Part shown: positions 12,060 to 13,748 of the stretch, piece by piece
Numbering within the stretch: position 1 is the stretch's first letter
Layout of the letters: each line of letters opens with the position of its first letter
Source: a virus
DNA length: 44,435 nucleotides
Strand: one strand, 5' to 3'
IMG/VR virus record: IMGVR_UViG_3300037502_000991
Coordinates: 1 to 44,435 of that record
Notes under the pieces: model-generated
The model's input: only the letters and a program-made list of their open reading frames with translations
Told to the model about the DNA's origin: nothing
Database searches by the model: none
Program-made: the position numbers and the translations under genes

Positions 12060-13748
12060 TCACAACATGGCCTCGAAGGCTTCTTCGTCAATGATGTAAC
12101 CGAGCGCGCACCGGCAATTATGATTGACTATGCCGTTGCTTATTAGTAGTCCTGTATCGCTCTCAAAATTATACACAGGACCATCATAATGGAACGTCTC
12201 GATAGAAGTGCATTCAAGAAGCTCGAAGGCCCTGTTGCTGTTAGATGGAAGGCAATTCGAGTTAGCAATTACGCTTTCGCCAAAGAACTGTTCGATACTG
12301 GGCATACCGTCAACAGCATCGCTCAAAAACTCAATCTTTCTAGGGCTATGGTTTATACCATTTTTGAAGAGCTTGGCCTTCCGCGTTTGAGTGTTTCCGA
12401 AGGCAACAAGAGGTCCGCTGCCTTGATGACTGAAAGTCAACGCATTGCCAGAGCCAGAAATGCTCATGAAGCAATCCGCAAAATCGGCAGAAATAGAATT
12501 GCTCAATCCGAGCATTCTGTTCGCCAGCAATCGACCGGAAACTATATCGGCATGGGTGAATCCGAATTGGCCGAAAAGTTGATTGCCAAAGGTTTTCATC
12601 CGATCCCGCAAGCTGCCGTTGAAGGATACAATATCGACTTGCTCTGTGACCACCTCGCCGTGGAAGTTCACAACTACACCACTCGACCCAGCGACAAGAC
12701 GCAAATTCTTTCCAGAATCATAAAGCTCTTGTGCGCTAATGTATCCATCATTTACGTCAGAACTGGACCGCATTTCCCGGTCATTAGCGATGCGGCTGTG
12801 AATCAGATTGTCGCCTTTTACGATCTTACCAGCGGCAACCCATCCTCTATCGGTAAGTATCGGGTGATTAGGGGTGACGGTCAAATTGATTGGACCGCCG
12901 AAAGACATCTTTATGAGCTGGCCGATATAGTTTCGGCGTATGCCGCGCTTAAGGCCAGCAGTTAAAATCATAGTGTCAGGATGGAAACAATTGATGACCT
13001 CATCCGCAGCCCCGGCGGGGTCGCCCGGATAATGCAAATCGGAATCGCCCACGCGGAAGGTGTCATCCATTCCAACGGTGTCACCATCAGCCGCGCGGTG
13101 TGTGTCGCGGGTGCGGTCATCTGCGGTTGCAAGCCATTGTTTTTTCATGGGCAATCCGGTTTGCTTGGCCGCTTCTTGTGAACCGAAATTGGCCGCGCCA
13201 TGTGTCTCGGTGCGGGCGATCATATTTGCGCGGTAGTCGGCTATTTGCGGAACAAGATCGAGGATATAATTGGCGGTGCCGCGCTGACCGAGGCCATCCT
13301 CGTAGCCTTTGCGAACAGCGCGGATGACTTGATCGCGGGTCGTGTCGGTCACTTCCGTGATGCGGCGACGGATGGCCTCTTGCTCAATATAGCGCAACGC
13401 AAGGCGGCGCATGATTTGGGCGAAGCTCTCTTTGGTTTCCTTTGTCTCAAGATCGAGACCACGCGATTTGCCTTGCTCATAAACGCGAGAGCCAAAGGTG
13501 GTGACGGAAGCCAGTGCCATTTGTTGATATGTCGCGGCGATGCGGTCATAGAACCCGCGCGGCAAGACAACATTGCCGGTCTGTTCCCAATGGCTCACCA
13601 TCTCGCGCATGGCGGCTTCTAGTTCGCTCTTGAGACGGCCACGAAATTGAATCGTCAGCCGATCAAGCAATGCGCCTTGGCGGCGCACTTCCCGGCGCGG
13701 GTTTTGGTCAATGAGCCTTCGTGCCATATGCCAGCGCCTTGATGTCAT
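12060..13748 (-). CDS. MuF-like head morphogenesis protein interrupted by an intein
   Basis: 562 codons. Residues 1-253 are the N-extein: a helical region followed by the MuF/SPP1 gp7-type domain (RTETHGAANFGSQEAAKQTG, DRTRDTHRAADGDTVGMDD, LHYPGDPAGAADEVIN). Residues 254-544 are the intein and 545-562 the C-extein (CRCALGYIIDEEAFEAML). Joining the exteins restores the conserved INCRC motif and gives a 271-residue protein. MuF-type proteins are minor capsid components linked to the portal. The gene overlaps the portal gene; an internal ATG at 13727 shortens the overlap to 20 nt and is an alternative start. Splicing is predicted from motifs and not shown. Confidence 0.92.
   Translation of the reverse strand: MTSRRWHMARRLIDQNPRREVRRQGALLDRLTIQFRGRLKSELEAAMREMVSHWEQTGNVVLPRGFYDRIAATYQQMALASVTTFGSRVYEQGKSRGLDLETKETKESFAQIMRRLALRYIEQEAIRRRITEVTDTTRDQVIRAVRKGYEDGLGQRGTANYILDLVPQIADYRANMIARTETHGAANFGSQEAAKQTGLPMKKQWLATADDRTRDTHRAADGDTVGMDDTFRVGDSDLHYPGDPAGAADEVINCFHPDTMILTAGLKRGIRRNYIGQLIKMSFGGPINLTVTPNHPILTDRGWVAAGKIVKGDNLIHSRIANDREMRSSSDVNDGYISAQELYDSGKNLRLVAGSSGVVVNFHGEVVTEQVDIVSFNGSLRDRMKTFGNQLFGQFGFTHADIVSGRLLANRMLGLSNSISADFADCFMSISGSGNALTFSHQGSGPLVAFGNTQTRKAKLFKNGINHSPRKIEFLSDAVDGMPSIEQFFGESVIANSNCLPSNSNRAFELLECTSIETFHYDGPVYNFESDTGLLISNGIVNHNCRCALGYIIDEEAFEAML
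12117..12989 (-). other. Intein (Hint splicing element) inserted at INCRC
   Basis: 291 codons in frame. It starts with Cys (CFHPDTMILT, block A), has block B with TPNH at intein residues 39-42 followed by PILTDRGWVAAGKI, and ends with blocks F and G (FHYDGPVYNF at 266-275, LLISNGIVNHN at 281-291). The +1 residue is Cys. All class 1 splicing residues are present: Cys1, block-B Thr and His, penultimate His290, Asn291, Cys+1. The central ~190 residues contain no LAGLIDADG or HNH nuclease on this strand; instead the opposite strand encodes a nuclease-like protein covering intein residues 9-267. A mini-intein needs only ~130-150 residues, so the extra length fits the embedded antisense gene or a large Hint variant. 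Confidence 0.93.
12189..12965 (+). CDS. Putative homing endonuclease encoded antisense inside the intein
   Basis: 258 residues on the strand opposite the intein, entirely inside it. Residues 31-66 form a helix-turn-helix (TGHTVNSIAQKLNLSRAMVY). Residues about 118-192 look like a Vsr/PD-(D/E)XK-type nuclease: E124 and E126 in GMGESELAEKL, then GYNID with D150, LAVEVH with E159 and H161, and the strand VSIIYV (185-190). The C-terminal part has YRVIRGDG (224-231), a motif I recall from phage nucleases of this kind. An AGGA at 12177-12180 stands 8 nt before the ATG. Codons are in exact register with intein codons. It would cut intein-less MuF alleles; that is inference. No convincing promoter seen. 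Confidence 0.82.
   Translation: MERLDRSAFKKLEGPVAVRWKAIRVSNYAFAKELFDTGHTVNSIAQKLNLSRAMVYTIFEELGLPRLSVSEGNKRSAALMTESQRIARARNAHEAIRKIGRNRIAQSEHSVRQQSTGNYIGMGESELAEKLIAKGFHPIPQAAVEGYNIDLLCDHLAVEVHNYTTRPSDKTQILSRIIKLLCANVSIIYVRTGPHFPVISDAAVNQIVAFYDLTSGNPSSIGKYRVIRGDGQIDWTAERHLYELADIVSAYAALKASS

Follow-up and report, generated by a model that had tools for sequence, protein, structure and literature searches.

Homing endonuclease genes (HEGs) are known on the antisense strand of group I introns, and the HEG family found in fractured genes includes I-Bth0305I. That enzyme has been reviewed among the phage intron endonucleases (PMC3943268), while descriptions of intein endonucleases have them as in-frame domains, inserted at a single conserved position (PMC6801210). 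In fractured genes (Dassa 2009, cited in PMC10448857), inteins are reportedly split and a separate Vsr-like HEG lies between the halves. A literature search, with bioRxiv and most subscription journals outside its scope, returned no report of an antisense endonuclease inside an intein.

The window, meaning the whole stretch of viral DNA analysed (44,435 nucleotides, positions 1 to 44,435 of IMG/VR virus record IMGVR_UViG_3300037502_000991), has a probable case of such an arrangement in a head morphogenesis gene. Its features are as follows.

12060..13748, minus strand: MuF / SPP1 gp7-like head morphogenesis gene with an intein inserted in it (PF04233, E 7.9e-12, residues 141-232; PHROG matches to head morphogenesis families)
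12117..12989, minus strand: intein of 291 aa, read from the sequence, with C1, block B T39-x-x-H42, terminal H290-N291 and extein C+1; weak TIGR01443 and PF14890 matches
12177..12191, plus strand: antisense start, ATG at 12189-12191 with AGGA at 12177-12180, 8 nt before it (from the sequence)
12189..12965, plus strand: antisense gene for a predicted nuclease, 258 aa plus stop (ORF, homologues, AlphaFold2 (AF2) model, fold matches)
12231..12485, plus strand: helical N half of the nuclease (residues 15-99), with a predicted HTH at residues 31-60 (HTH_7, E 0.0032; AF2); opposite lies intein linker, mostly predicted to be disordered
12558..12671, plus strand: predicted nuclease catalytic core, E124, Y147-N148-x-D150 and A157-V-E159 (conservation; profile matches to 3hrl and 3r3p)
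12654..12665, minus strand: intein F109-H-G-E112 (the 'DFHGD' motif), opposite nuclease L156-A-V-E159 (per-site decomposition)
12858..12881, both strands: doubly coded site, intein T37-I44 (block B) and nuclease Y224-G231, the last core strand (codon pairs, codon bias, per-site decomposition)

The nuclease ORF lies fully within the intein, on the opposite strand and in codon register with the intein frame; any nuclease residue n has its codon in common with the intein residue m for which n + m = 268. Sense and antisense overlap over 774 bases in total, and the 24 bases of block B are one end of this overlap.

The window intein has C1, T39-P-N-H42, H290-N291 and C+1, the residues of a class 1 Hint intein. 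Among 100 intein sequences C1 and N291 are invariant, and T39 and H42 are each at least 90% conserved. The Hint parts of the AF2 model (1-70 and 250-291) are mostly above pLDDT 84 and the centre (129-249) is almost wholly below 50; the best Foldseek matches are intein splicing domains (prob 1.00), the Mtu RecA intein among them, and AF2 and Foldseek together identify a Hint fold.

On the other strand, an alignment of 106 nuclease sequences has N148, D150 and E159 invariant and E124, Q141, Y147 and A157 conserved at 90% or more. The profile matches PDB 3hrl (2.8e-6), I-Bth0305I (3r3p, 1.2e-4) and resolvase-type HTH domains. Pfam finds MTES_1575 in 63 of the 106 members, HTH_7 in 52 and DUF559 in 11; the window nuclease scanned alone gives weak HTH and REase matches. 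Its AF2 model (pLDDT 87.6) matches the folds of I-Bth0305I (3r3p, Z 10.7; Foldseek prob 0.99), Vsr (1cw0, Z 10.5) and 3hrl (Z 10.5). In a comparison with the EDxHD motif the E, D and second E align; the xHD part is ambiguous in the alignment. Profile similarity, fold and conserved acidic active-site residues all place the family in the Vsr-like / EDxHD / DUF559-MTES_1575 superfamily, and the antisense protein is predicted to be a Vsr/EDxHD-like nuclease with an HTH-rich N half.

A tblastn search with the antisense protein returned 123 phage records at E<=1 (best 3e-20). In the loci inspected the match runs antisense to a MuF intein, with three kinds of exception: Virus Rctr197k, which has the intein and antisense nuclease in a dCMP deaminase-like extein; a Streptomyces plasmid copy (L017), whose extein was given no name; and Acinetobacter phages, which have the nuclease without an intein. 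The Rctr197k gene (L015:616-1968) is annotated 'putative head morphogenesis protein' and resembles a dCMP deaminase-type extein; inteins of this kind in loci L071, L075, L079 and L141 are also flanked by extein residues that are un-MuF-like. Profile-guided IMG/VR scans brought the collection of nuclease ORFs, earlier loci included, to 183 (near-duplicates counted; 119 at a 75% identity cut-off). Of the 183, 181 run opposite an intein frame, 180 of them in codon register; since the sample was seeded by antisense-nuclease similarity and one search pattern included the motif opposite block B, unoverlapped relatives may be under-represented in these counts, which likewise give no rate of nuclease-free MuF inteins. 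The overlapped loci come from Gordonia, Pseudomonas, Salmonella, Klebsiella, Vibrio and uncultured phages. A search of genome contigs added three relatives, all overlapped, and a class-wide search around a Rhizobium genome found one overlapped copy together with weak DUF559-like matches that do not have the motif; related-locus searches with a single window protein or with broad alignments gave no usable matches. These MuF genes are annotated as 'head morphogenesis' or 'intein' alone. The deposited annotation of Escherichia phage Snoke (L012:2141-4000) has a 273-residue intein (Cys244-Cys516) and no antisense gene, and in the other annotated regions that were opened no antisense gene is entered, apart from the free-standing Acinetobacter copies.

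Selection on each strand was assessed by swapping intein codons among synonymous positions, which keeps the intein protein and its codon composition (200 permutations per locus), and scoring the antisense frame with a leave-one-out HMM from which near relatives were excluded. The window scores 169.7 bits against a permuted mean of 69.6 (maximum of 200, 105.5). Across loci the real scores are 130-263 bits and the permuted means 35-94, and in 18/18 loci none of the 200 permutations reaches the real score (z 7.1-12.5, values that are not exact probabilities since the loci are kin). The mirror test on the intein side is also positive in 18/18. The conservation of each protein is independent of that of the other, and the dual constraint is at the protein level. 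Divergence agrees: pooled over five related pairs, sense codon positions 1/2/3 diverge by 0.348/0.115/0.248 in the overlap and by 0.205/0.155/0.373 in the exteins. Position 1 exceeds position 3 in the overlap of all five pairs, the reverse of the exteins, so over most of the overlap it is the antisense protein that is under the stronger constraint.

These results bear on two explanations that do without a second protein. The antisense ORF might be a by-product of the biased codons of a conserved intein, its frame open and superficially conserved; in-register antisense frames are indeed often open in GC-rich genes, and the intein region of Gordonia phage Lennon, which is without any nuclease, has one in-register stop only. 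However, the antisense score collapses in 18/18 loci once codons are permuted with protein and codon composition unchanged. Solved nucleases are among the matches of the nuclease profile, the AF2 fold is confident, and homologues exist without an overlap. Taken with the codon-position divergence, the permutation test and profile matches refute a codon-bias artefact, and we give this explanation next to no chance. A DNA- or RNA-level element, such as a recombination site or RNA structure, deserves just as little credence: overlapping constraint from such an element would likewise lower third-position substitution, but the constraint seen here tracks antisense codon structure (position 2 lowest, position 1 above 3) and, at 25-30% identity, the residue preferences of an established nuclease fold. 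The permutation test and the per-site decomposition also speak against such an element.

How two folds occupy the same bases can be read from a per-site decomposition, in which the log-odds of the real sequence are compared with those of synonymously permuted codons. Nuclease residues 31-145 carry 1.4-1.8 bits per residue of constraint of their own; the intein linker opposite them (123-237) has no constraint of its own, at 0.04-0.06 bits per residue. Intein residues 37-51 carry 2.2-2.6 bits per residue beyond what the nuclease explains. The long linker between the Hint halves (residues ~123-237) is in essence a shadow that the nuclease casts on the sense strand. Ordered parts of the two proteins are staggered, and both models are confident together at roughly intein 40-70 / nuclease 198-228, which includes the block-B site. 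The main collisions are of intein blocks A and B with the C-terminal helix and strand of the nuclease, and of the intein HGD with a nuclease core strand; at these sites the codon choice suits both proteins. The second of them, intein H110-G111-E112 against nuclease L156-A157-V158, adjoins E159 and is also doubly constrained. In the decomposition H110, G111 and E112 are kept in the intein beyond the nuclease-explained level, and the linker motif 'DFHGD' may therefore have a role in the intein.

A linker with so little constraint of its own, and a nuclease strand that is the more conserved, would also suit a locus in which the nuclease is the sole functional product and the intein frame a by-product or degenerate. 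We regard this as very improbable, since blocks A/B and F/G keep the intein catalytic residues beyond the nuclease-explained level (the 2.2-2.6 bits at 37-51), the intein frame must remain open for MuF to be produced, and a Hint fold is found.

Block B had drawn attention in a sequence-only reading, which paired its codons one by one with those of nuclease residues 224-231 and proposed a double constraint on about 24 bases. Direct reading of the codons shows the pairing to be exact and every pair given there correct: Y224 TAT/I44 ATA, R225 CGG/P43 CCG, V226 GTG/H42 CAC, I227 ATT/N41 AAT, R228 AGG/P40 CCT, G229 GGT/T39 ACC, D230 GAC/V38 GTC and G231 GGT/T37 ACC. The paired motif occupies 12858-12881, inside the 12837-12882 assigned to it in that reading. 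Codon choice was then compared, over 97 non-redundant loci, with the codon usage of each locus's own extein. T39 is ACC in 64/95 (expected 29), N41 is AAT in 78/93 (expected 38) and H42 is CAC in 67/97 (expected 54); at intein codon 44, Ile is ATA in 42/42 (expected 10.6) and Val is GTA or GTG in 36/36 (expected 18.4). In a clade with Leu-44 in the intein, E or Q replaces nuclease Y224, so Tyr224 is preferred and non-essential.

The decomposition separates the two contributions. Real against permuted values are 3.50 and -1.03 bits at Y224, 2.63 and 1.41 at G229, 1.96 and 0.06 at G231, and 3.13 and 2.41 at I227; at V226 (3.28 and 3.22), R225 (2.46 and 2.02) and R228 (2.20 and 1.88) the difference is small. 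Y224, G229, G231 and, weakly, I227 are nuclease constraint added beyond that of the intein, while the identity of V226, R225 and R228 is mostly expected anyway from complementarity to intein H42, P43 and P40. The constraint at block B is double, yet unevenly divided between intein and nuclease. The proposal of a double constraint holds in that both proteins are conserved and third-position freedom is lost, and is to be amended in that 'VIR' is mostly set by the intein N-H-P. Its companion, that these residues are a conserved nuclease motif, stands for the structure: AF2 places 224-228 in a core strand, in a block of pLDDT 93. It does not stand for most of the 'VIR' identity, which is no independent motif.

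Natural controls exist on both sides. In Acinetobacter phages and in locus L140 the nuclease adjoins an intact, intein-less MuF (…MCKCRAKL… and …HPGCRCSC…); these free-standing family members, at L019:2797-3687 and L140:2621-3313, may be either ancestral or remnants of a lost intein. The corresponding nuclease strand reads 'GYFKVLTIRS' in the Acinetobacter phages and 'EYHLVWNSG' in L140, so that outside an intein the strand is kept and 'VIRG' is absent. An independent 'YRVIRG' nuclease motif is ruled out by these unoverlapped nucleases and the per-site decomposition. Conversely, Gordonia phages Lennon and SchottB (L197 and L198) have a MuF intein at the same N|C-R-C site and no nuclease match. 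Their block B reads ACG-[CCG or CTG]-AAC-CAT-CCG-ATC, with ACG at T39, AAC at N41 and ATC at codon 44, whereas the overlapped Gordonia phage APunk has ACC at T39 and GTA at 44. Without the overlap, Lennon and SchottB use default codons (ATC, against GTA in APunk). The controls on the two sides are few and all concordant. The in-register antisense frame of Lennon and SchottB is nearly open from GC bias alone, and for this reason openness of the antisense frame is poor evidence.

Signals for expression of the antisense frame are enriched. Counting back from the intein C-terminus, 64/100 loci have within codons 15-30 a start codon paired with a Shine-Dalgarno core of 4 nt or more, where permutation gives 21.2 ± 3.7; with a core of at least 5 nt the number is 40, against 8.2 expected (n=100). 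The typical start region is GGAGGTTATAAAC-ATG, opposite block F 'HVYNLQ', and many relatives have GGAGG-N8-ATG. A promoter scan for the plus-strand frame found no clear promoter.

The insertion shows a presence/absence polymorphism at a conserved site. In about a dozen listed Guernseyvirinae (Salmonella phage) records MuF matches in two pieces at 87-93% identity, with the 816-bp intein absent, and the protein of Salmonella virus VSiA is continuous across the insertion site (AHPN|CRSTT). The extein after the intein is C[RK]C in 78/98 loci. The nuclease is thus tied to an intervening element whose site is conserved and, in relatives, empty, as a homing endonuclease is. Its main role might still be other than homing, either cutting competing phages or regulating through the HTH: HEGs can act against co-infecting phages, and the HTH-rich N half could bind operators. 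We think this unlikely given the tight linkage to an intein at one conserved extein site, the presence and absence among close relatives, and nearest folds that are a homing endonuclease and Vsr-like nucleases.

A homing intein with an antisense-encoded endonuclease is, with high confidence on our part, the best explanation of the locus. Phage MuF genes would be host, at their conserved N|C-R-C site, to a mobile intein, and nearly all of the intein's length would also encode, on the other strand and in codon register, its homing endonuclease. After translation of the MuF mRNA the intein would splice itself out; a separate HTH and Vsr/EDxHD-like endonuclease would be translated from a start codon of its own, in many cases with a Shine-Dalgarno sequence; and this enzyme would cut the intein-less MuF allele, whose repair would copy the intein in. 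A plausible origin is that a nuclease gene was inserted, inverted, where intein endonucleases usually lie, and that the in-register complement chanced to be open. More broadly, it is probable that this is a widespread phage element, an intein and a Vsr-like homing endonuclease of unrelated folds on opposite strands in codon register, with a linker that is only the shadow of the nuclease.

If this is true, homing elements would gain a new kind of genetic architecture, and two enzymes coded in register in both directions could be studied in a natural, testable case. Endonucleases placed antisense would escape annotation, and what looks like a mini-intein with a disordered linker might, with such an endonuclease on its other strand, be an active mobile element. 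The family would offer many independent natural cases of two unrelated folds on opposite strands in codon register, with constraints separable per site, of direct relevance to the theory of overlapping genes and to proposals of bidirectional coding of early enzymes.

Compared with known systems, the MuF intein resembles LAGLIDADG/HNH inteins (PI-SceI, PI-PfuI type) in that the Hint domain is interrupted between blocks B and F, the endonuclease is genetically linked to the intein and the extein site is conserved. The endonuclease of those inteins is an in-frame domain, whereas that of the MuF intein would be a separate protein of another nuclease fold, encoded on the opposite strand of nearly the whole intein. 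I-Bth0305I (3r3p) is the nearest solved relative by profile and fold and likewise has a nuclease domain joined to DNA-binding helical modules; the MuF-intein nuclease differs in having its gene antisense inside protein-coding sequence and its HTH-rich part N-terminal. Fractured genes also combine an intein with a separately encoded endonuclease of the I-Bth0305I-containing family. Their intein is reportedly split, with the HEG between the halves, whereas the MuF intein is unsplit and its HEG is on the complementary strand, sharing the same bases. Antisense HEGs in group I introns are alike in that the endonuclease gene and its host element occupy opposite strands, but that host is non-coding, so unlike in the MuF intein there is no dual protein coding. 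The parts of the MuF intein are therefore known ones, in a new, doubly coding arrangement.
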